From Spirochaetes bacterium GWE1_32_154 (GTDB lineage: Bacteria; Spirochaetota; GWE2-31-10), in contig MIAY01000031.1 of assembly GCA_001829315.1 (NCBI GenBank), positions 1 through 64,000 of the forward strand: a stretch of DNA of 64,000 bases, read 5' to 3'. Shown one piece after another: positions 32,810-44,567 of the stretch. The position numbers and the translations under genes were made by a program. The notes under the pieces were generated by a model, which did no database searches, was not told the origin of the DNA, and saw nothing but the letters and a program-made list of their open reading frames with translations. Numbering within the stretch: position 1 is the stretch's first letter; the number at the start of each line of letters is the position of its first letter.

Positions 32810-34705
32810 TTATTTCTCCACGGCATCATACGTTGCATCCCAATACTGAGTATCCAATAAACCTTTATTTTGCTTTTCGATTAATGCAGTTACCCGGTTA
32901 TAATAAAAAAGCACAAGCGGATCTATCGGCAAATTCTGAAAATAGGAGTGAGACGGTAATGTATCTAATAATGTCCTATATATTTTCTGTGCTGCTTCAA
33001 AATTTTTGTTATAATAATGATCATACGCTTCTTCCAAAGCCCCTTTCATGTTTTTCTTTAATGCAATAACATTTTCTCTCTCGTAATCATATACTTCATA
33101 CACAGATATTGGTTTATTACGCCCCTTAACCCTCACTCTATCAATAAAACGAATCTGGTAAAGATCTTTTAGAACCTGTTTAAGATCCTCAGAAATAATG
33201 AAACCAACCCTATATTCCTTCGTCAGTGCTTCAAGACGGGATGCAACATTTACTGTATCACCAATTAATGTATAATCAAGTTTGTTGACAGAACCGATAT
33301 TTCCGACAATAACATGACCATTGGTAATACCTATACCGGTATTTATAATATCTTTGCCCTCGGACGCTAATTTTTTATTGTATTCACTGACCTTTAATTT
33401 AATAGCAATACCTGCTTTAACCGCATTATCCGGGTCGCTAAACCCTGCCATAACCGAGTCACCGATAAGTTTATCAATTTCACCGTGATTAGTATTGATA
33501 ACTTCATTAACATTGTTATAATAATCATTAAGAAATGTAACAACATCAAGTGCATTAAGATTTTCGGTTATCGTTGTAAACTGCCTGATATCATTAAATA
33601 AAACAGAAAGATTTCTTTGTTCCGGGATAAATGTTGACGGGTCTTCACCACCTTTTATTTTCTGGATAAGTGAATATCGTGTATACACTTCCATAATCCG
33701 TAACCTTCTGTCAGATTCGGATAAAGCCTGCTTTAATTCAAACAATTGGAGATTTGTAAATTCAATTTGCTTTTCTATTTCACTTAATGATTTAAGAAGA
33801 AGGTTTTGTCCTTTTAAAGCATTATGTAAGCGTTTAAATAGTGAGTGTTCCTTCCATTTTAAATGGAATAAACAATACGGGGCATTATAGATTTCACCTT
33901 TAAATAATATCGTTCTTTTCCCGATCTTAAAATCATCAATCACCCTTAAAGCATTTTTATTTGTACCATTTTCAACGACTGAATTTATATAAACCTGATT
34001 ATTTCCAATTTTTTTTGTTGCCAGCTCTACAAATTCTGCTACCGGGTTACCGTTAACTGTCAGATATTTATCATTTTTTTCTACTTTTAAATTATAGTAC
34101 CCGTACCCGTAGGTTAAAAGATTTTCCAGTCTTTTTGAACAAATAACATGGTCAACCGAATAGTTTTTTATATTGTGAATCTCAAAGTTCGCTTTCCAGA
34201 CACCTTCAGTAAATCGACACTCACCACCGACACTTGCCTGATTATAAAAAGGGTAATCTTCCTGAATTAAGTATGCTTCACCCCTTTTAAAAAGGGCAGG
34301 TATAATATTATATTCATTATTAAATTTTCTAATATTCTTCTCTACTTCCTTAATGATTTTACCGGCAGACATAGCTTTAAAAAATATCATAAATAATGAA
34401 TTATCAGAAAACCTGAAAAACCGTCCTGCCTCGACATAATCATGGTGAGTAAATGTATCATAACCGTATTTAAAAAGATTTATATGAAATAACTGCTCAT
34501 CTCGAGAATTGATCCAGTTTTTAGGATTATTAAACTCTTCTTTTGTCATCGTTAAACCGCGAAGCAAATCATCTTCTTTATAACCATACTCTTTGACAAA
34601 ATAATTTTTCATCGCTATATAATTTTCACAGGAAGCACCGGGAATCATTTTTAATTCGAGATACGAAATATCCTTTTTATAAATGAGATCTTTCCATTCA
34701 GCCAT
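32810..34705 (-). CDS. Class III adenylate/guanylate cyclase with novel N-terminal region
   Basis: A 631-residue protein. The cyclase catalytic domain is about 365-545: LSVLFNDIRQFTTITEN (metal Asp), IDKLIGDSVMAGF (second metal Asp), LDYTLIGDTVNVASRLE and the end IRFIDRVRVKGRNKPISVYE. Both metal-binding Asp are kept. About 365 N-terminal residues, all soluble, form an unrecognised sensor-like module with many aromatic residues, then a short coiled coil (KGQNLLLKSLSEIEKQIEF) before the catalytic domain. A TPR-like helical tail follows (about 560-631). AAGGCGG precedes the ATG. It immediately precedes the thioesterase gene and adjoins the chemotaxis cluster. Confidence 0.87.
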   Translation of the reverse strand: MAEWKDLIYKKDISYLELKMIPGASCENYIAMKNYFVKEYGYKEDDLLRGLTMTKEEFNNPKNWINSRDEQLFHINLFKYGYDTFTHHDYVEAGRFFRFSDNSLFMIFFKAMSAGKIIKEVEKNIRKFNNEYNIIPALFKRGEAYLIQEDYPFYNQASVGGECRFTEGVWKANFEIHNIKNYSVDHVICSKRLENLLTYGYGYYNLKVEKNDKYLTVNGNPVAEFVELATKKIGNNQVYINSVVENGTNKNALRVIDDFKIGKRTILFKGEIYNAPYCLFHLKWKEHSLFKRLHNALKGQNLLLKSLSEIEKQIEFTNLQLFELKQALSESDRRLRIMEVYTRYSLIQKIKGGEDPSTFIPEQRNLSVLFNDIRQFTTITENLNALDVVTFLNDYYNNVNEVINTNHGEIDKLIGDSVMAGFSDPDNAVKAGIAIKLKVSEYNKKLASEGKDIINTGIGITNGHVIVGNIGSVNKLDYTLIGDTVNVASRLEALTKEYRVGFIISEDLKQVLKDLYQIRFIDRVRVKGRNKPISVYEVYDYERENVIALKKNMKGALEEAYDHYYNKNFEAAQKIYRTLLDTLPSHSYFQNLPIDPLVLFYYNRVTALIEKQNKGLLDTQYWDATYDAVEK

Positions 34706-34799: not shown

Positions 34800-35156
34800 T
34801 TAAATCAACTTCTTAACGGTTTCAATTAATTTTTCCTGTGTAAACGGTTTAATTAACCAGGCTGAGGCACCTGCTGAAATCCCCTCGTTCTTCTTGTTTT
34901 CCTCACTTTCTGTTGTTAACATAATAATTGGTGTGTATTTATTTGAACCGGTAGAACGGATATTTTTTATAAATTCAATTCCGTTCATTTCCGGCATATA
35001 CAAATCTGTGATTATCAGTTTAAACTTATTACCGAGAAGATCACAACCCAATTTACCGTTTTCAGCTTTGATACAGTCAAACCCATTTTCACAAAGCGTA
35101 AAGTCAATCATGTTTCTCATAGATGATGAATCATCAACAATTAATATACTGTCCAT
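34800..35156 (-). CDS. cheY: CheY-like single-domain response regulator
   Basis: A 118-residue receiver with no output domain. Acidic pocket VDDSS, phospho-Asp in LIITDLYMPEMNG, Thr in MLTTES and Lys in LIKPFTQ are all present. It is the final gene of the long minus-strand chemotaxis cluster (RBS AAGGAGG), so it is the likely motor-directed or adaptor response regulator of that system. An equally valid call is a generic receiver. Confidence 0.85.
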   Translation of the reverse strand: MDSILIVDDSSSMRNMIDFTLCENGFDCIKAENGKLGCDLLGNKFKLIITDLYMPEMNGIEFIKNIRSTGSNKYTPIIMLTTESEENKKNEGISAGASAWLIKPFTQEKLIETVKKLI

Positions 35157-35172
35157 TTTAAACCTCCTTATA

Positions 35173-36447
35173 TTAATTCCCTAATACCTTTTTCATAATT
35201 TCTCTTTCATGCTCCATTGTATACATACTGTTCATCCATGCTTCAACGTTTCCCTTGTCAGATACTGAATTAACTGACTCTTTTTTTGAAATGCTACTAT
35301 ACGAACCGGATAGTTCCTCATAAAGATCATTCAAAGGAGTAATCACATGCTCTAAACGCTGTCTTGTAATATCCTGGAATTGTATTGAAACAACAATCTG
35401 CCCGATACTTTTTGAAATATGCTCTGTCATTGCTTTAAAATTCTCAAAACCTTCCGACATTGATGAAATCTGCATATCCATTAAAGTAAGCATCTCGTTA
35501 ATTCTTTTTTCAGCGTTATCTGAAATATCAATATTCTCCTGTACCGAAGACTCAATATTCGATAATATAGTTGTAGAATGATGAATTGTGTTTTTTATCA
35601 ATCCGTTAATCTCGATTAATGAACCATCGATTTTTTCTGAGAGTCCTTTTATTTCCCTTGAGATTATAGAAAACGCTTTCCCATGCTCGCCTGCACGTGC
35701 AGCCACTATTCCTGCATTAAGAGACAGAACTTGAGTTTTCTGTTGAAATTCCTGAATCTTCAAAAAAACATCACCGATGTTTCCAAGATTTCCTGTTATA
35801 TAACTGATACCAGAGAACATTTCATTTAGTTTACCGGTAATGTCATTAAAATTTTTCATGAGTGTTGCAAGAAACTGTTTGTTATATTCAAAAATATTCG
35901 AGTCAGCACCATCTGCATTGTGCTTATTAAAACTTTGCTCAGTTATCTGAGTATGTTCTTTTGTTTTTTTATTTATAACTCTAAATGAGTCAATCAAAGA
36001 TGAAGCTGCCTCATCTGTTAATTGAATTACTGCATTTATCTGATTTGAATACACCGGTAAAAGGTCAATTTTCGGTTTTATCTTTTTTATTACGGCTAAA
36101 GCAGATTCTTCCATTTGTTCAACTTCTTCAGTATGATTACGTATGAGAGTATGTATTTGAGCATCTTTTTCAATAAGTTGGTTTGTTAATACATTCACTT
36201 CAATCTGATTATCGTCAATAATTCTCCTGATGAGTGCAGACCGTTTGCTACTGATCATTTTAAAAGCTGTGATTACAAGCAAAGTCCCGGCTAAAACAAA
36301 ACCGCATTGAAGAACATGAAAATTAAAAAACTGAAGTATAATCAAAACAATGCAAATGATAGAAAAACCAATCAATACGGCATTTTCCTTTATTGTTATT
36401 GTTTGAATCATTTTTTCAATTTCTTTACTCTTATTTGTACTATTCAT
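35173..36447 (-). CDS. Chemoreceptor-like membrane protein without periplasmic sensor; CheZ-like motif
   Basis: A 424-residue protein. Two adjacent TM helices (about 21-61) leave almost no periplasmic domain, then a coiled coil and a degenerate receptor hairpin whose tip reads [20 protein letters not shown] instead of the canonical LNAxIEAARAG. The region after the tip contains IQFQDITRQRLEHV; CheZ phosphatases use FQDLTGQ, where Asp and Gln four residues apart are catalytic. It overlaps the RR-HD-GYP gene by 8 bp and precedes cheY. It could be a receptor-like scaffold or a CheY-P phosphatase; this FQD motif also occurs in other receptor-like proteins, so activity is inference. Confidence 0.75.
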   Translation of the reverse strand: MNSTNKSKEIEKMIQTITIKENAVLIGFSIICIVLIILQFFNFHVLQCGFVLAGTLLVITAFKMISSKRSALIRRIIDDNQIEVNVLTNQLIEKDAQIHTLIRNHTEEVEQMEESALAVIKKIKPKIDLLPVYSNQINAVIQLTDEAASSLIDSFRVINKKTKEHTQITEQSFNKHNADGADSNIFEYNKQFLATLMKNFNDITGKLNEMFSGISYITGNLGNIGDVFLKIQEFQQKTQVLSLNAGIVAARAGEHGKAFSIISREIKGLSEKIDGSLIEINGLIKNTIHHSTTILSNIESSVQENIDISDNAEKRINEMLTLMDMQISSMSEGFENFKAMTEHISKSIGQIVVSIQFQDITRQRLEHVITPLNDLYEELSGSYSSISKKESVNSVSDKGNVEAWMNSMYTMEHEREIMKKVLGN

Positions 36448-37543
36448 AAGACACCCTTTTTCCTATTTCAATGAATTTATCTTTGTACTCAAAAAAAACA
36501 TCAAAAATATACGGATCAAAATGCCGTCCTCTTTCTTCCTTTATTATAGTAAATGTATCGGCTTTCGAATATGCAACTTTGTAAATACGCTTACTGACCA
36601 GTGCATCAAAAACATCAACAATAGCAACAATTCTTGCAGCTACAGGAATTTCTTCACCTTTTAATCCTAAGGGATATCCCGTGCCATTCCATTTTTCATG
36701 ATGATACAAAGCAATATCTTTACCAACTTTAAGAAAATTGAAATTAGTATAATGTTTATATGCATTTTCAAGAATTTCACCGCCAATCACAGAATGAGTT
36801 TTCATTACTTCAAATTCATCAAATGTTAACTTCCCGGGCTTCTTTAAAATGTTATCTGATATACCGATTTTCCCGATATCATGAAGAATACTCATGCAAA
36901 ATATGTCATCAATATCATCATTAGAAAAATATTTTTCATATTTGGATGTTAATGCTAATTTTTCTATCAAATACTTTGTATAACTTTTTATTCTATTAAG
37001 ATGCTCTCCGGTTTCATTATCACGAATTTTTGCAAGTTCTGATAATGTAAAAACCATTGAATCTTTTGTATAATTAATTGTTTCTCTGCTTTTCTTTTTT
37101 ATTTTCTCAATTTCAAGTTTGTTCTGTATATTTTCTGACTTAATTTCTTTACTTCTAATATGAGAGCCTATTCTTAAAAGTAATTCAATTCTATTATACG
37201 GTTTTTTTATATAATCACTTGCACCATGAATAAAAGCCTTCTCTATTGAAAATGAATCACTATTTGAACTGACCATAAGAACTGAAGTATTAAAAATTTG
37301 AATCTGTTCATAAAGTAAACTCAAAACTTGAAATCCATCCATACCGGGAAGGTTTATATCAAGTAAGACCACATCCGGTTTCAAAGTTGTTAAGGAAGAA
37401 AGAGCTTCATTATAATTTTTTGCAAATATAAGTTCATAAAAAGGACTCAAATCCGCTTTATATCGTTCAAGCTGGGATATACTGTCATCAACACAAAGAA
37501 CTGAATATTTTTTTTTCATTTCATTCGTTTCAATAACGTCCAT
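36440..37543 (-). CDS. Response regulator with HD-GYP c-di-GMP phosphodiesterase domain
   Basis: A 367-residue RpfG-like protein. N-terminal receiver (about 12-130; VDDS, phospho-Asp in VVLLDINLPGMDG, Lys in YIKKPYN), a short coiled coil, then HD-GYP (about 165-360) with HDIGKIGI and YHHEKWNGTGYP, the two signatures of c-di-GMP hydrolysis. Both motifs look intact. It overlaps the preceding receiver-like gene by 14 bp and the following receptor-like gene by 8 bp, tying c-di-GMP turnover to the chemotaxis cluster. AAAGGAGG precedes the ATG. Confidence 0.92.
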   Translation of the reverse strand: MDVIETNEMKKKYSVLCVDDSISQLERYKADLSPFYELIFAKNYNEALSSLTTLKPDVVLLDINLPGMDGFQVLSLLYEQIQIFNTSVLMVSSNSDSFSIEKAFIHGASDYIKKPYNRIELLLRIGSHIRSKEIKSENIQNKLEIEKIKKKSRETINYTKDSMVFTLSELAKIRDNETGEHLNRIKSYTKYLIEKLALTSKYEKYFSNDDIDDIFCMSILHDIGKIGISDNILKKPGKLTFDEFEVMKTHSVIGGEILENAYKHYTNFNFLKVGKDIALYHHEKWNGTGYPLGLKGEEIPVAARIVAIVDVFDALVSKRIYKVAYSKADTFTIIKEERGRHFDPYIFDVFFEYKDKFIEIGKRVSYE

Positions 37544-37904
37544 GATTCCCCTCCTTTTTCAGCAAATTAACATCATTATCAATATATGAATAAAGATCCT
37601 TAATCGGGCATGTTACATTTCCCTTCAAATCTCTCAAATATTCATCTTTCATGTGTAATATAAAAAGATTATCAGGGCTTATTATTTTATATTTTTTCTT
37701 AGTAATATATTTGCTGTTAACTACATCGGTAATGATGTAGTTATTTTCTTTATTTGAAAATTCAATCTTTTCAATCCGATTAATTCCTTCAAATACATCT
37801 GATATTATCTCTATTTCAAATGGAGTCTCTTTCAGCATAGTATCGATAATTTTAGACATTAAAAAATCATTCATAATAATAAATAGATTTTTATTATTTT
37901 CCAT
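37530..37904 (-). CDS. Degenerate receiver-like protein
   Basis: A 124-residue protein whose length and secondary-structure order match a receiver domain, but whose active site is altered. The first strand ends IIMND instead of VDD, a possible phospho-Asp survives in NYIITDVVNS, and the Lys region reads CPIKDLYSY. Such pseudo-receivers usually signal by protein contact. It sits between cheB and the RR-HD-GYP gene and overlaps the latter. I cannot exclude an unrelated alpha/beta protein. Confidence 0.55.
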   Translation of the reverse strand: MENNKNLFIIMNDFLMSKIIDTMLKETPFEIEIISDVFEGINRIEKIEFSNKENNYIITDVVNSKYITKKKYKIISPDNLFILHMKDEYLRDLKGNVTCPIKDLYSYIDNDVNLLKKEGNHGRY

Positions 37905-37938: not shown

Positions 37939-39012
37939 TCAGGAAATATGCTTTATTATTTCATCTGCAACTTTTTCAAGCGGAACAATTTTATCAACCG
38001 CTTTCATTTTTATTGCTTCTTTAGGCATGCCAAACACCACACAACTTTTCTCATCCTGGGCTATCGTAAATGCCCCGTTATCATACATCTCTTTCATTCC
38101 CCTCGCTCCGTCATCACCCATTCCTGTCATAATAACCCCGATACAATTCTTTCCGACATTATATGCGGCAGAACGGAATAAGACATCAACAGAAGGACGG
38201 TGTCTTGCTACAAGCGGACCTTCTTTTACCTCAACATAATATTGAGTACCATTACGTTTTATTAACGTATGATAATTCCCCGGAGCAATTAAAGCCTGTC
38301 CTTTAAGTATAGTATCTCCGTTTTTTGCCTCTTTAACAGTGATCCCGCACAACGAGTTAAGACGTTCTGCAAATGACCGTGTAAAGTTTTCAGGCATGTG
38401 CTGAACTATAACAAGACCCGGCGTATCAAGCGGGAGTCCCATAAGAAATTCACGCAATGCCTCAGTTCCTCCGGTGGATGCACCGACCGCAATTACTTTT
38501 TCTGTAGTTTCGGTAAGCACCATTTTATTTTTCTTTGTTATTATTACATCAGCGGTTAACTTTTCCTGCGGTGTGATTACATGCGGTTTGCATTTATTAA
38601 GTTTAGCTCCGGCAGCTGCTTTTACTATGTCTGTAAATAAAACTTTTGATTCTTCAAAAAAACGCTTTGTTCCAATTTTTGGTTTAGTTATTATATCAAC
38701 AGCTCCTAAAGCCAATGCTTTCATCGCAGTATCCGACCCGTCAAGAGCGAGTGTTGAACAAATAACAACCGGTATCGGATGCTGAGCCATAATTTCAGTT
38801 AAAAAAGTTAAACCATCCATACGAGGCATTTCAAGATCAAGTATTATAACATCCGGACGAACTAATTTAATTTTTTCAACTGCATAATAGGGATCTGCAA
38901 CAGCGCCAATTACTTCAATATCATCATCAGCAGCAAGAACACCGGTGATTGATTGCCTTACAACAGCTGAATCATCAACTATAAGAACTTTTATTGGATT
39001 CCTTCCGGTCAT
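37939..39012 (-). CDS. cheB: Chemotaxis protein-glutamate methylesterase
   Basis: A 357-residue CheB, which demethylates and deamidates receptor glutamates when phosphorylated by CheA. Receiver domain 1-125 (VDDSAVVRQ, phospho-Asp in [13 protein letters not shown]), linker, then the esterase domain (about 165-357) with active-site [10 protein letters not shown] (Ser), the His in IVQHMPENF and the Asp in [20 protein letters not shown] precedes the ATG. It partners cheR immediately upstream on this strand. Confidence 0.95.
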
Positions 39013-39022
39013 TATTGCCTCC

Positions 39023-39877
39023 CTATTTTTTTCTGTATATAGTTGGTGCTATATTTTTTAACTGAAGGTTAAAATTCATTAAGGTTTCAGAATGTCCGAT
39101 GAAAAAATACCCGTCATTTTTTAAATAACCGGTAAGTTTCATACAAATTAATTCCTGATTTTCCTTACTAAAGTAAATAAGCATATTCCTGCAAAAAATG
39201 ATGTCAAACTCTTCAAAAAACGGGTAAGTACAATCCATCAGATTGACGACTTTAAAACATGTTCTTTCCGCAATCTCCGGTATTATCTTAGCAAACCCTT
39301 CATGTGAGCTTTTACCCCGGAGAAAATAACGGTGTTTTAATTCAAGAGGAATTGTTTCTATTGCAGATTCAGGGTATATACCATGTATTGCTTTGTGAAT
39401 AACTTTTTCGGAAACATCAGTTCCGGTAATAGTATATTTAATCTCAGGCATAGAATTCACACGCTTAAATTCTTCAATCGTACATGCAAGAGAATATACT
39501 TCTTCACCGGTTGAACATGGAGCACTTAATATTTTTAATGTTTTTCCATGACAATCATATTTTGTATGAAATATATCAGGTAAAACTTTATTCAACAGAT
39601 AATTGAAATGCTGAGGTTCTCTGAAAAATCTGGTTTCATGGGTAGAAACCAGATCAGCAAAAATTGGAAGTTCATTAAAGATTCCATCTTCACTCGTAAG
39701 ATATTTAAAATAAGTACTGTATGATTCAAAATCAAGTTCTTTTAACCTTTTTGAAAGCCTTGTGGTAAGAAGTATTTTTTTGGTTGTGGGCATTCTTATA
39801 CCAAATTGAGATTCAATAAAATTACTTATCTGATATCGTTCTGTTTCACTCATTGAATTGGTATACATCATATCCAT
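39023..39877 (-). CDS. cheR: Chemotaxis protein methyltransferase
   Basis: A 284-residue CheR, which methylates receptor glutamates using S-adenosylmethionine. The N-terminal helical domain (LTTRLSKRL), [25 protein letters not shown] (SAM loop), [12 protein letters not shown], the CRNMLIYFS motif and FFIGHSETL are complete. No pentapeptide-binding insertion is obvious. GGGAGG precedes the ATG at 39877. It lies between cheW and cheB. Confidence 0.96.
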
Positions 39878-39898: not shown

Positions 39899-40405
39899 TT
39901 ACCCGACAGATTCTATGTCATCTGATGGTATATGTGCTGTTATAATTGATAATTCTTTTTCTGAAAAAACATTATCCGCATTGAGAATCATAACAAAATT
40001 CGTATTACTTTTTGCTATTGAATGAATAAGATTAACATTAAGTTGCATTCCGATTTTAGGTGGTGGTTCTTTCTGACTTTCATCAAACCGGACAACAGCT
40101 TTTACTGCATCAACGAGTGCTCCAATTGTTATAACCTCTTTACCGTATAAAACCTCAACAATAATGACTGAGGTATCAATTGTACGTTCATTTGGTTTCA
40201 TACTGAATTTCTCTCTTAAATTGATTACAGGAACAACACTCCCTCTTAGATTAATAACGCCTGCCATAAAGGATGGTGTTCTTGGAATCGGTGTAATCTT
40301 TACGAGATTTAACACCTCTTTTGTTTTCAATACATCGAATGCATACGTTTCATTATCAAGAACAAATGTAAGATATTGCTCATTTTCAACTTTTACTTCA
40401 CTCAT
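39899..40405 (-). CDS. cheW: Chemotaxis coupling protein
   Basis: A 168-residue CheW, the adaptor linking CheA to receptors. The SH3-like fold segments are clear: QYLTFVLDNETYAFDVLKTK, PRTPSFMAGVINLRGSVVPV and the LREKF strand, then VIIVEVLYGKEVITIGALVD. The ATG at 40405 is chosen because AGGAGG lies directly upstream; the frame continues upstream to 40462 into the cheA end but without family resemblance. Confidence 0.96.
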   Translation of the reverse strand: MSEVKVENEQYLTFVLDNETYAFDVLKTKEVLNLVKITPIPRTPSFMAGVINLRGSVVPVINLREKFSMKPNERTIDTSVIIVEVLYGKEVITIGALVDAVKAVVRFDESQKEPPPKIGMQLNVNLIHSIAKSNTNFVMILNADNVFSEKELSIITAHIPSDDIESVG

Positions 40406-40421
40406 AAAAACCTCCTGATTA

Positions 40422-42470
40422 TCATAAACACTTATCCAGCCTGCTATAATTTTTATTAACAATCGTATTAAGATCCATTATCAATGCAATGGTTCCATCC
40501 CCCAATATTGTTGCTCCTGATAATTCATCAACCGACCTCAACGCTGCAGAAAGCGGTTTAATAACCGTCTGATGTTTACCTTTTACATGATCAAATACAA
40601 GACCTACTTTTTTCCCGTCAACCATAACTATAACCATACATTCAATATCAGGTTTGTTTGTCTGAATATTAAAACTATCCCGTATTTTAATAAATGGTAT
40701 TAGCTCACCACGAAGATAAATAACATCACCGCCATGATTGTTTGATAAAATATCTTTCGTAAGATCAACACATTCTTCAACATTTGAAAGGTTAATTAAA
40801 TAATGATTATCGTTTATCGACGTTAAAAGTCCGTCAATAATCGCCAATGTTAATGGAATCAAAATAGTTATTGATGTCCCTCTGTCTTTTTCAGAATTTA
40901 TTTTAATTGTCCCTCTCATTTTTTCTATACTTTTTTTTACTACATCCATACCAACACCACGACCTGAAATCTCCGTAGCCTCATCATTTGTTGAAAATCC
41001 GGGCTCAAAAATGGTGTTAATTATTTCACATCGATCTGCATCGTGCGAAATCAATCCTTTTTCAATCGCTTTTACTCTGATTTTTTCAATATCAAGTCCC
41101 TTACCGTCATCGGTTACAATAATTTCAACATTTGAACCTGAATATCCCGCAGAAATGGTTATTGTACCTTTTACCGGTTTGTTTTTTGACTTTCTTGTAT
41201 TTTCATCCTCAAGTCCGTGATCTGCTGCATTTCTGATAATGTGCATAAGAGGATCTCTCAAAGAATCGATAAGATTTTTATCAATCTCCGTGTCACCGCC
41301 ATTTGTTATTAACTGAATGTTTTTATTCAAATTATGTGATAAATCGCGAATCATTCTGGTAAAACTATTAAATGTTTCAGAAAACGGTATCATACGAATG
41401 TTCATCGAAATATCCCTTAAATCATCGGTTATTCGTCCGAGATATTCTGAAATGACAAGAAACTCTTTCTGTTTTGACTTAACAGATTCTTCATGTAATC
41501 GCGCCTGAAGTGTCACAAATTCACCAACAAGATTAATTAGATTATCAAGTTTTTCATTCTTTATTCTGATTGTACTTACTTCAACTTTATTTTTTTGTTC
41601 CTGAAGAATTGTTCGTGCCAGTTTCTGTTCTACAACGGCACCATCAATTTTTTCCTGACTGATAATACCCTTGTCTAATGCGATTTCACCAAAAAGTTTT
41701 TGTTCGGATTTAATTGAACTAATCATCTCTCCGGTTAAAACCCCGTTATCAACAAGGATTTCACCGATTTTCTTATAATTCCCGTCAGGATATTGAAAAA
41801 AATCCGTAACTTGATTAATACTGATTTCCGAATCATTTTCTACAAAAATAAAAGCATTTCTAACTTCGTCTATATCCAACTCAGTAATAAGTAAAATAAG
41901 CCACGATATATAACAGCACTCAAAATCATACGATTCAAATGGTGGAATACTATCAATATAAGATATTAGCTTTGATTCACCATACGAACTGACCTCTTCA
42001 AAAATTTTAATTATATCAATACCTCTTTTAAAAACATCATTCGCCGGTGTAAAATTGATTCTTAAAAATCGTTTTGTTCCTGTCTTTTTAGAACCCGTAT
42101 TTGACTTGATTTTTTTTAACTGTGATAAAACATTTTTTCTATCAATGATATCAGTATCAGAATCACTATTCAATAATTTTTTAATTTGATCAGAGGCGGT
42201 GAGTGATAAATCAATAATTTCTTTTGTTACTTTACAGTTACCGTTTCTGATATCATTAAAAGTCGACTCAAATTCGTGAGTAAAATCAGCAATTTTTGTA
42301 AAGCCGAACATAGCGCCCGAACCTTTAATTGTATGAAGATACCTGAATATATTGTTTATAACTTCGCCATCCTCAGGTGTATCCTCAAGAATAATTAACG
42401 ATTGTTCCAACTCTTTGAGTAATTCAACCGCTTCTTCAATATAAACATCTTTATTCACTGTATAATCCAT
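40422..42470 (-). CDS. cheA: Chemotaxis histidine kinase CheA with MshEN-like linker repeats
   Basis: About 682 residues from the ATG at 42470 (GAGGG upstream; the TTG at 42476 is rejected). Numbering here is from the ATG. HPt P1 with phospho-His near 46 (YLHTIKGSGAMF); a P2-like region (about 130-210); then two tandem helix pairs at about 224-275, KIGEILVDNGVLTGEMISS and GEIALDKGIISQEKIDGA, resembling MshEN/GspE-N motifs; P3 dimerisation (RIKNEKLDNLINLVGEFV); P4 kinase with HIIRNAADHGLE, DDGKGLD and GRGVGMDVV; P5 CheW-like end. It starts three bases after the STAS gene stop and is followed by cheW. Confidence 0.95.
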   Translation of the reverse strand: MDYTVNKDVYIEEAVELLKELEQSLIILEDTPEDGEVINNIFRYLHTIKGSGAMFGFTKIADFTHEFESTFNDIRNGNCKVTKEIIDLSLTASDQIKKLLNSDSDTDIIDRKNVLSQLKKIKSNTGSKKTGTKRFLRINFTPANDVFKRGIDIIKIFEEVSSYGESKLISYIDSIPPFESYDFECCYISWLILLITELDIDEVRNAFIFVENDSEISINQVTDFFQYPDGNYKKIGEILVDNGVLTGEMISSIKSEQKLFGEIALDKGIISQEKIDGAVVEQKLARTILQEQKNKVEVSTIRIKNEKLDNLINLVGEFVTLQARLHEESVKSKQKEFLVISEYLGRITDDLRDISMNIRMIPFSETFNSFTRMIRDLSHNLNKNIQLITNGGDTEIDKNLIDSLRDPLMHIIRNAADHGLEDENTRKSKNKPVKGTITISAGYSGSNVEIIVTDDGKGLDIEKIRVKAIEKGLISHDADRCEIINTIFEPGFSTNDEATEISGRGVGMDVVKKSIEKMRGTIKINSEKDRGTSITILIPLTLAIIDGLLTSINDNHYLINLSNVEECVDLTKDILSNNHGGDVIYLRGELIPFIKIRDSFNIQTNKPDIECMVIVMVDGKKVGLVFDHVKGKHQTVIKPLSAALRSVDELSGATILGDGTIALIMDLNTIVNKNYSRLDKCL

Positions 42471-42472
42471 TT

Positions 42473-42781
42473 TCAAACCCTCGCCAGACGGGATATATCA
42501 AGACCGACAATAGAAGAAATTCTTGATAATTCACTGCATTTTTCCAGCTCCATAAATGACATTGAAATATTCTTATGATTGCATTGTTTATTTAAGCAAA
42601 ATATAAACTGTAAAAAACAAAGATCATATTTGGTAACATCACGAAGATCAAATTGTATACCTTTAATCTCTAATTGTTGTACTGCTTCAATTTTCTCAAT
42701 AACTTCGGCAATACATTCAATTGTTGCAGATTTTGATATTTTTACAATAACACCATCATTAATATTAATAACTTCTACCAT
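42473..42781 (-). CDS. STAS-domain protein
   Basis: A 102-residue soluble protein that fits a STAS (anti-sigma antagonist-like) domain: beta strands at the start (VIVKISKSATIECI), a helix, GIQFDLRDVTKYDLCFLQFI in the position of the usual IxLDLxxVxxxDSSGL, and a C-terminal helix. The canonical Ser/Thr phosphorylation context is not clear (DLCFLQ replaces DSSG), so partner switching may not need phosphorylation. First gene of the cheA operon, with its stop overlapping the cheA ribosome site region; such STAS proteins accompany CheA in several spirochaete-like clusters. Confidence 0.7.
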   Translation of the reverse strand: MVEVININDGVIVKISKSATIECIAEVIEKIEAVQQLEIKGIQFDLRDVTKYDLCFLQFIFCLNKQCNHKNISMSFMELEKCSELSRISSIVGLDISRLARV

Positions 42782-42809: not shown

Positions 42810-44417
42810 TTAATATTTTTCAAAATCATTAATATCACTGTCTTCTTTTGCCAATTCGATATGAACACCACTTGAATGTATATTATGATGAATATCAGTT
42901 CGTCCGTCGGTGATATGTTTGGAATTTTTTTTACCATTGCTATCAGGTAGATGCGTTGGCAAAAGAAAATGAGTTGAATGGCTTCCATTTTTACTATCAT
43001 GAATAACTGTTTTCTTTCTATCAGTGAAGTTATTGCGACTTGAGGCAACTTTATCACTTCCATATTTCAATGTGTTTATTGCAGACTGCATTTGAATAGA
43101 CTGTGCTGCAAGCTCCTCGGCTGTTGCAGCAAGCTCTTCTGCATTAGCGGCATTTTGCTGAACCACCGAATTGAGTTGCATAACAGCAGTATTTATCTGT
43201 TGAATACCATTTGCCTGTTCACCGCTTGCTGCATTTATTTCAGCAACAAGTTCTGATGTTTTTTCTATATCCGGTACAAGACTCGATAGCATAGTACCCG
43301 CATCAACAGCAATTTCAACGCTCTCTTTTGACAACTTACCGATTTCGACAGCAGACTGCTGACTTCTTTCTGCAAGTTTCTGTACTTCACTGGCAACAAC
43401 TGCAAAACCCCTTCCATGTTCCCCGGCACGGGCAGCTTCAATGGAAGCATTAAGAGAAAGTAAGTTCGTCTGTCTGGCTATTTCCTGAATTATTGATACT
43501 TTTTCAGCAATTTCTTCCATTGCTTTAACCGTTTTGCCAACAGCAACACCGCAAACTTTTGCATCATTGGCACTTTTTTCGGCTATCTTTTCTGTCTGGC
43601 TTGCATTATCAGAATTCTGTCTGATAGTTGCCGTCATTTGTTCAATAGAGGAGGAAACCTCTTCAACATTTGCAGCCTGTTCTGACGCCCCCTGAGAAAG
43701 CTCTTCAGAAGAAGAAGATATTTGTTCTGTTCCAACACTTACCTGATTTGATGAACTGTCAACAGAATCGACAACTTTAATGATTGACCTGATTAATAGA
43801 AATGATATAACAAATGCAAGGAGAATACCCGCACCAATTATTGTTATCATTAACACAGTTGAAAAATTTGCTGTTTTCGTGTTTTCATCAGCGATAATTT
43901 TACCTTTATTTAAACTGTACGCATATAAAGTATCAATTTCATTATTAACAATATTTTTAATGGTTGTAAAATCACCATTCATTAATATAAGAGCTTCATC
44001 CATTCTTTTTTCTTTAATAAGTGTAATGAATTTTGACACCGTTTCTTTATATATAACAGCTTCCTTAATTAATACTGAAAACATTTCCTTTTCTTCTGCA
44101 CTGCTTATAGTTTTCTCGTACACAGCTGCATCTTCATCCATTTTAGTTAACAGCATATTAATTTCATTTACATGTGCATTTATTCTCTCAGGGTTCTCAT
44201 AATTTATAAAAGCTAATAAATAATTTGCCCTGACACGGTGAAAATAAGCTGAAATATGGCCAATTTCACCAAGAGGTATCAAACCTTTTTCATATAATGC
44301 AGTATCCGCAGTATCAATTTTTCTAATCTGAATAATACCAAAAATACCGATTACGACAGAAACCAATATTACAGCACAAAAACTTATTACAATTTTCATC
44401 CCGATTCCTATTTTCAT
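42810..44417 (-). CDS. Methyl-accepting chemotaxis protein with four-helix-bundle sensor
   Basis: A 535-residue receptor from the ATG at 44417 (AAGGAGG six bases upstream). TM1 about 5-28, a 4HB_MCP-like periplasmic helical bundle (about 35-185, [20 protein letters not shown]), TM2 about 186-210, then directly a long signalling hairpin with tip [20 protein letters not shown] and Glu/Gln methylation-type regions ([20 protein letters not shown]). The tail ends in an Asp/His-rich disordered stretch rather than a CheR-tether pentapeptide. It heads the STAS-cheA operon, so it is a likely direct input to that CheA. Confidence 0.93.
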
Positions 44418-44567
44418 AAAAAGCCTCCTTTTCATTTACTTGATAAAGCAGAAGGTGTGCCGTAAATAAGATTATTTGAAAAAATTGTTAATGATGGGGT
44501 TTATTCTTTATGAATATTTTTTAAATATTGATTTTATACATAATATTGTATTTATAGTTTATGTGAC

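Follow-up and report, generated by a model that had tools for sequence, protein, structure and literature searches.

Which protein would switch off the CheY encoded in a chemotaxis gene cluster in which no CheY-P phosphatase can be recognised? The question is raised by a stretch of 64,000 nucleotides from Spirochaetes bacterium GWE1_32_154, which is called the window throughout. A preliminary description of the window had listed cheA, cheW, cheR, cheB and cheY, all of which are found by Pfam, had noticed no CheZ, CheC or CheX, and had proposed that a receptor-like membrane protein encoded beside cheY could be the missing CheY-P phosphatase, tied to the receptor array. The absence is borne out for the window and its contig, where neither Pfam searches of the own genome nor local CheX and CheZ HMMs run over the window's open reading frames found a CheX, CheC or CheZ gene. 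The genes of the region, all on the minus strand, are as follows.

32810..34705, minus strand: adenylate/guanylate cyclase downstream of cheY (Pfam)
34800..35156, minus strand: stand-alone receiver of the CheY type with D8, D9, D51, T81 and K103 (Pfam Response_reg)
35173..36447, minus strand: MCPZ, receptor-shaped and CheZ-like, 424 aa (open reading frame and translation; Pfam)
36440..37543, minus strand: receiver plus HD-GYP domain, putative c-di-GMP phosphodiesterase (Pfam; NCBIfam NosR-family model below cut-off)
37530..37904, minus strand: 124-aa protein between cheB and the HD-GYP regulator (no Pfam match at E ≤ 0.001)
37939..39012, minus strand: cheB (Pfam)
39023..39877, minus strand: cheR (Pfam)
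39899..40462, minus strand: cheW (Pfam)
40422..42476, minus strand: cheA with Hpt, dimerisation, ATPase and CheW domains (Pfam)
42473..42781, minus strand: STAS-like protein, weak match (Pfam)
42810..44435, minus strand: ordinary MCP of the cluster with 4HB sensor and MCPsignal domains (Pfam)

The cheY gene begins 17 bp downstream of the MCPZ gene, whose start is overlapped by the receiver-HD-GYP gene. Judged by its sequence, the 124-aa protein looks like a degenerate receiver. CheA of this cluster gives no P2 match; CheA of a CheX-containing operon elsewhere in the genome (L067) has P2.

The receptor-shaped protein MCPZ

MCPZ is the label given here to the receptor-shaped, CheZ-like protein, which by its translation is MCP-like and HAMP-less, has two transmembrane helices and contains SIQFQDITRQ. 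In Pfam, MCPsignal spans residues 207–356 (E 3.5e-18, 66.5 bits versus a cut-off of 34.6), and a sub-threshold CheZ match places residues 323–392 on positions 93–162 of the profile (E 0.0062, 16.9 bits versus 30.7). A sensor input domain and a HAMP domain, which are usual in MCPs if not universal, gave no Pfam match at E ≤ 1, nor did CheX or CheC. The parts of MCPZ that matter in the following are these.

36253..36393, minus strand: two predicted transmembrane helices with a short loop, residues ~19–65 (Kyte-Doolittle scan)
35977..36072, minus strand: CheZ-like helix 1, residues 126–157, family pattern P..L..V...TExAA..L...F (hhalign to eight CheZ)
35623..35766, minus strand: MCP-type hairpin tip, residues 228–275, degenerate, V248 for Glu (24-member alignment)
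35359..35382, minus strand: putative catalytic helix QFQDITRQ, residues 356–363 (Q356, D359 and Q363 in 24/24)
35176..35250, minus strand: C-terminal tail with a conserved YTMxxE, residues 400–424, beyond a linker of low conservation (alignments)

What the preliminary description had said about the protein itself proved accurate. Its periplasmic domain is almost absent, with two hydrophobic stretches and a short loop within residues ~16–67 (Kyte-Doolittle), and its signalling tip is degenerate at one notable position, 248, where the window has Val and 23 of the 24 family members have Glu; this Glu occupies what we take to be the trimer/kinase-contact position of chemoreceptors. The CheZ-like motif is present as well, D359 and Q363 standing four residues apart within IQFQDITRQRLEHV, and SIQFQDITRQRLEHV lies on the C-terminal helix. 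In the tail, E414 is nearly invariant in the 22-member alignment and conserved to 83% in the 24-member alignment, and the protein ends in EREIMKKVLGN. The structure prediction that had been suggested did give a model from single-sequence AlphaFold2, which is, however, poor (mean pLDDT 52, pTM 0.30).

Family, conservation and pairing with cheY

Relatives were searched with MCPZ in 392 genomes of the window's phylum (inferred to be Spirochaetota). The search returned many MCPs, which match via the hairpin tip, together with relatives of about 400–465 aa that match over more of their length. Around the candidates 24 loci were selected on open-frame length and score, and 28 rows were aligned. Six of these (L039, L040, L042, L060, L065 and L066) were rejected as members because they align via the hairpin tip only, which left 22 rows, and a third Marinomonas locus like L039 and L040 (L041) was left out of the 28-row alignment. 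Homologues were also found on plasmids of Pseudomonas sp. HR96 and Aeromonas sp. BC14, so that the family studied has 24 members, 22 in the window's phylum and two on gammaproteobacterial plasmids. A plasmid search with the C-terminal module alone revealed nothing beyond the same two plasmid records, and scans of viral contigs found no relatives.

Only five columns are invariant in the 24 members, namely N244 and G253 of the tip and Q356, D359 and Q363, an invariance that is partly circular, since the six rows removed from the alignment as ordinary MCPs lack the motif. Less circular is the finding that the seven best non-self matches to MCPZ (E ≤ 1.3e-16), three of them from G162 and the others from G146, G011, G015 and G202, all carry the Asp and the Gln. 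For comparison, 22 ordinary MCPs, hand-picked in the window and in the loci of the family, have 15 invariant columns in common. Constraint in the MCPZ family is shifted from the hairpin tip to the D/Q helix.

The control for motif and register counts was a set of 43 ordinary MCPs from which the window protein was excluded. A bare DxxxQ occurs within the last 200 residues of 25 of the 43 and, being this common, was rejected as evidence. The extended motif QxxDxx[RS]Q is found in 24/24 family members versus 10/43 ordinary MCPs; by this comparison the extended motif and its setting in MCPZ, unlike the bare DxxxQ, are beyond what chance is expected to give. Nine of the 24 members have a short C-terminal DVTFF, EVTFF, DVTLF or similar end, which is absent from the window protein. 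In other receptors, a C-terminal peptide of such a length serves as the tether for CheR.

In 22 of the 24 family loci, all but L048 and L063, the next gene downstream is on the same strand and encodes a stand-alone receiver, mostly within 40 bp; none of 29 ordinary MCPs in the loci examined is followed by one. D8, D9, D51, T81 and K103 (window numbering) are kept by all 22 partner receivers, and 21 of them have an Asn two residues after the phospho-Asp, where the CheY of the window has a Tyr. Both gammaproteobacterial clusters have the order MCPZ - cheY - STAS - cheA - MCP - cheW, so that a STAS gene is shared with the cluster of the window.

The C-terminal module has a wider distribution than the family. 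Used alone it matches in 120 of the 392 genomes at E ≤ 0.001. A strong group (E ≤ 1.3e-17) comprises 26 places in 23 genomes; beyond it the matches are mostly to proteins of 540–700 aa, and ordinary MCPs may account for the weak ones around E 1e-4. Twelve loci were given a second look, five of which have a receiver gene directly downstream. In four of the twelve, membrane-anchored proteins of 179–239 aa carry a D/Q helix of the QFED or QHED type, and no MCP tip was found in them:

L113:5882-6601: short tip-less relative
L114:5855-6559: short tip-less relative
L115:4998-5648: short tip-less relative
L116:5499-6038: short tip-less relative

As a group these short relatives match MCPZ with E 4.6e-16 over 100 columns and CheZ with E 7.6e-4; two of the four are encoded directly upstream of cheY.

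Longer proteins with the module were seen in addition. Three relatives of 540–581 aa (L117:2746-4368, L118:4301-5950 and L119:4201-5946) have QYQDITLQ or QYYDITSQ and a C-terminal DIIIF or NIIMF end; they are encoded near cheA, with no receiver gene directly downstream. Proteins of about 600 aa are widespread, many module matches having about 570–630 aa, and include at least one (L124:3861-5606) with QWQDIIRQSLDHV, a GVTLF end and no obvious transmembrane anchor.

Relation to CheZ

According to PMC3510030, CheZ depends on an Asp and a Gln (DxxxQ), which coordinate the water that attacks CheY-P, and NarX employs the same motif. For comparison, eight CheZ sequences, one from E. coli and seven plasmid-borne, were aligned by hhalign with segments of the family. 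The segment around D359 matches with E 5.4e-6 and a score of 35.4 (E-values being pairwise, not database-scaled), whereas the best of 40 column shuffles scores 16.7, the reversed segment 19.1 and windows from ordinary MCPs (n = 10) at most 17.2. A second segment, around TDEAA, aligns to the CheZ stretch IPDARDRLYYVVQMTAQAA with E 0.0025–0.0027 and scores of 21.2–21.7, versus at most 12.5 for 40 column shuffles and 17.4 for the reversed segment. This match is correctly placed on the first-helix CheZ motif RLxYVxxMTExAA, but its R and Y have no conserved counterpart in the family. For three further family segments, the score against CheZ did not exceed that of reversed or shuffled copies.

The register is that of CheZ. 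In 23 of the 24 members, the window protein included, the D/Q pair falls on CheZ states 143 and 147 (D143/Q147), versus 2 of the 43 ordinary MCPs. D359 and Q363 lie at 119–170 degrees from the hydrophobic moment of the core, and D143 and Q147 of CheZ at about 150–160 degrees (period 3.5); for the positions of the first helix, the phases of the MCPZ family and of CheZ nearly coincide. By this calculation D359 and Q363 are predicted to point outwards from the hydrophobic core, like their counterparts in CheZ. PMC7750401 gives AxxF(Y)Q as the sequence directly before the Asp of CheZ, and SIQFQ of the window has the same F and Q, with Ser for Ala. The C-terminal CheY-binding peptide of CheZ (DDLLxSLGF in the aligned CheZ) is absent from the window protein.

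Profile searches give a mixed picture. With Pfam CheZ, 11 of 22 members give a match at E ≤ 0.1, the best reaching 3.6e-5, as against at most one of the 22 ordinary MCPs, since CheZ is not among the 25 families listed for these; other coiled-coil families also reach low E-values, for example ATG17_like with 1.7e-5, which matches 5/22 members. Over the 392 genomes no protein exceeds the CheZ cut-off (30.7 bits), and the best match of all comes from the family (G307, E 1.4e-5). In its own genome, where Pfam found no CheZ, the window protein is the only CheZ match at E ≤ 0.1. A family locus is among the CheZ matches in 16 of the 23 strong-family genomes, and the remaining matches are mostly scattered long proteins. 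When the C-terminal profile was searched against the whole PDB, CheZ (1kmi) came out 13th of 20 with E 0.96 and in the right register, outranked by designed coiled coils and by Mediator subunits. MCPZ scores below the CheZ cut-off, has no CheZ-type C-terminus and is therefore not filed here as a CheZ, although it would work like one.

Function, rival explanations and known systems

The data directly support a family, an invariant outward D/Q pair in CheZ register and a pairing with cheY. With an outward residue pair of the CheZ type and a cheY that almost always adjoins, MCPZ is probably an overlooked receptor-shaped signal-off enzyme, and the function that we favour, on sequence and by analogy, is that of a dedicated membrane-anchored CheZ-like phosphatase for the neighbouring CheY. 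The two transmembrane helices would anchor MCPZ in the inner membrane, and the cytoplasmic hairpin would dimerise to a four-helix bundle. Near the base of this bundle, D359 and Q363 would lie exposed on the second helix, next to TExAA of the first helix. The CheY of the downstream gene, after phosphorylation by the CheA of the cluster, would dock there, the Asp contacting the receiver and the Gln positioning the attacking water, as in CheZ. Beyond the linker, the tail with YTMxxE may recruit CheY in the manner of the CheZ C-terminus. The least certain step is the docking of MCPZ into the receptor array, because the tip of the window protein is degenerate. The proposed tie to the array is hypothetical: the window protein has lost the tip Glu, the tips of several relatives have decayed, and the short relatives are tip-less.

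The word missing also has to be given up. A CheX or CheC elsewhere in the genome, together with a failure of the protein to accelerate CheY-P decay, had been named as what would refute the idea of a phosphatase, and the first half of this applies, for the genome search did find such genes: CheX in five places, which are four CheX proteins and one FliY-like protein, and CheC in three, all outside the contig of the window (Pfam). An early supposition that the organism has no CheX was therefore rejected. One of the CheX genes belongs to the separate operon L067 (cheA - cheW/cheR - cheX - cheY). Since CheX is present elsewhere in the genome, MCPZ cannot be called the cell's missing phosphatase and could at most be the dedicated one of its cluster; the idea of a CheZ-like CheY-P phosphatase as such gains real support from the CheZ register, the invariant surface D/Q pair and the cheY that follows directly in 22 of 24 loci. 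The idea that MCPZ replaces CheX at the level of the genome was likewise dropped, CheX being encoded in 336 of the 392 genomes of the phylum and in 23/23 strong-family genomes.

With CheX in all strong-family genomes, and even next to MCPZ in some clusters, the need for another phosphatase is not evident. A CheX-family gene lies immediately upstream of MCPZ in L048, L050, L052 and L054 (Pfam) and in L051 (sequence resemblance); in L049 CheX is elsewhere in the cluster (Pfam), and local HMMs found CheX in L122 and beside L057 and L058. The order is cheY - CheX-like - MCPZ in L048, L050, L051, L052 and L054, and in the last four a second cheY follows behind MCPZ, each receiver thus adjoining a different phosphatase candidate. 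With two receivers in such clusters, each could have its own phosphatase. Another locus (L069:9485-12232) encodes, next to a CheX-like gene, a fusion protein in which an ammonium transporter is joined to Hpt and histidine-kinase ATPase domains.

This distribution of CheX suits an explanation in which MCPZ is a receptor-shaped docking site or sink, its D/Q helix localising or buffering CheY or CheY-P, and CheX does the hydrolysis; the pairing with cheY is as compatible with binding as with catalysis. We nevertheless consider it unlikely, because both catalytic residues of the CheZ type are invariant and in register, and a surface that served for docking only should drift along with its CheY. 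It is more doubtful still that MCPZ is an ordinary or decaying chemoreceptor whose likeness to CheZ is a coincidence of coiled-coil composition. Such a coincidence would agree with an MCPsignal match above cut-off, with the frequency of the bare DxxxQ in ordinary MCPs and with the low rank of CheZ in the PDB-wide search, but it is at odds with conservation that now lies at the D/Q helix (two tip columns and three of QxxDxxxQ, versus the 15 of MCPs), with a pairing with cheY that the ordinary MCPs lack, and with short relatives that have no tip and yet retain the D/Q module. Least probable is a part in adaptation or as a scaffold, in which the tail (YTMxxE, and in some members the DVTFF-like end) would tether a protein such as CheR or CheB, and the role of the D/Q helix would be structural. 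For this the DVTFF-like ends in 9/24 members and the complex of the likewise DXXXQ-containing CheT of Sinorhizobium meliloti with CheR (PMC12654446) can be cited, but the window protein has no such end, D and Q point outwards instead of into the core, and the constant direct neighbour is cheY, not cheR.

The phosphatase reading can be extended, tentatively and with the odds against it, to a missing link between chemoreceptors and CheZ: the tip of the hairpin would control the kinase and its base would dephosphorylate CheY, CheZ would be a receptor-derived bundle minus the tip, and the tip-less relatives of 179–239 aa would be intermediates. If so, one conformational change of the hairpin could set both the kinase and the phosphatase rate. 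Should the family be the off-switch of the adjoining CheY, "chemoreceptors" annotated in such clusters, in genomes of the spirochaete type and on at least two gammaproteobacterial plasmids, would need re-annotation, and a single receptor-shaped molecule might combine kinase and phosphatase control. It would also become possible to test where CheZ originated, a subject to which no dedicated report was found in the literature searched.

How does MCPZ compare with known systems? A receptor-shaped CheZ-like family was not reported in the literature searched, which included PMC2577667 and covered a minority of the subscription journals. With CheZ (PF04344; E. coli, PDB 1kmi) MCPZ shares the outward DxxxQ in register and the cheY neighbour, and in part the residues just before the DxxxQ (F and Q, with Ser for Ala) and the TExAA helix (without the R and Y). 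Unlike CheZ, it is membrane anchored, carries a receptor hairpin that separates the two CheZ-like helices, has no DDLLxSLGF C-terminus, scores under the family cut-off and is encoded in the order MCPZ-cheY. MCPs (PF00015) resemble it in the transmembrane anchor and in the signalling hairpin, which in MCPZ is above cut-off; they differ in that MCPZ is without sensor and HAMP domains, has its conservation moved to the D/Q helix and is followed directly by cheY, and in that the tip is decayed or missing in some of its relatives.

CheX, CheC and FliY are like MCPZ in being alternative CheY-P phosphatases, present elsewhere in the window's genome, but they are of a different family, CheX having an ExxN motif (PMC3510030). 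In S. meliloti the DXXXQ protein CheT acts as a CheY phosphatase; its sequence shows no significant homology to chemotaxis proteins already known, and its predicted structure is like that of CheZ. It shares the DXXXQ with MCPZ, and in the accessible part of PMC12654446 no receptor architecture is mentioned for it. Similar in outline is VC1394 of Vibrio cholerae, a little-known 24H receptor with a transmembrane region that is encoded in the F9 cluster together with CheA VC1397 and for which the accessible part of a review (PMC7534058) mentions no sensor domain. Judged by this description and by the gene content of the two plasmid clusters, its cluster is perhaps of the same type as the Pseudomonas and Aeromonas loci, and VC1394 may itself belong to the MCPZ family.
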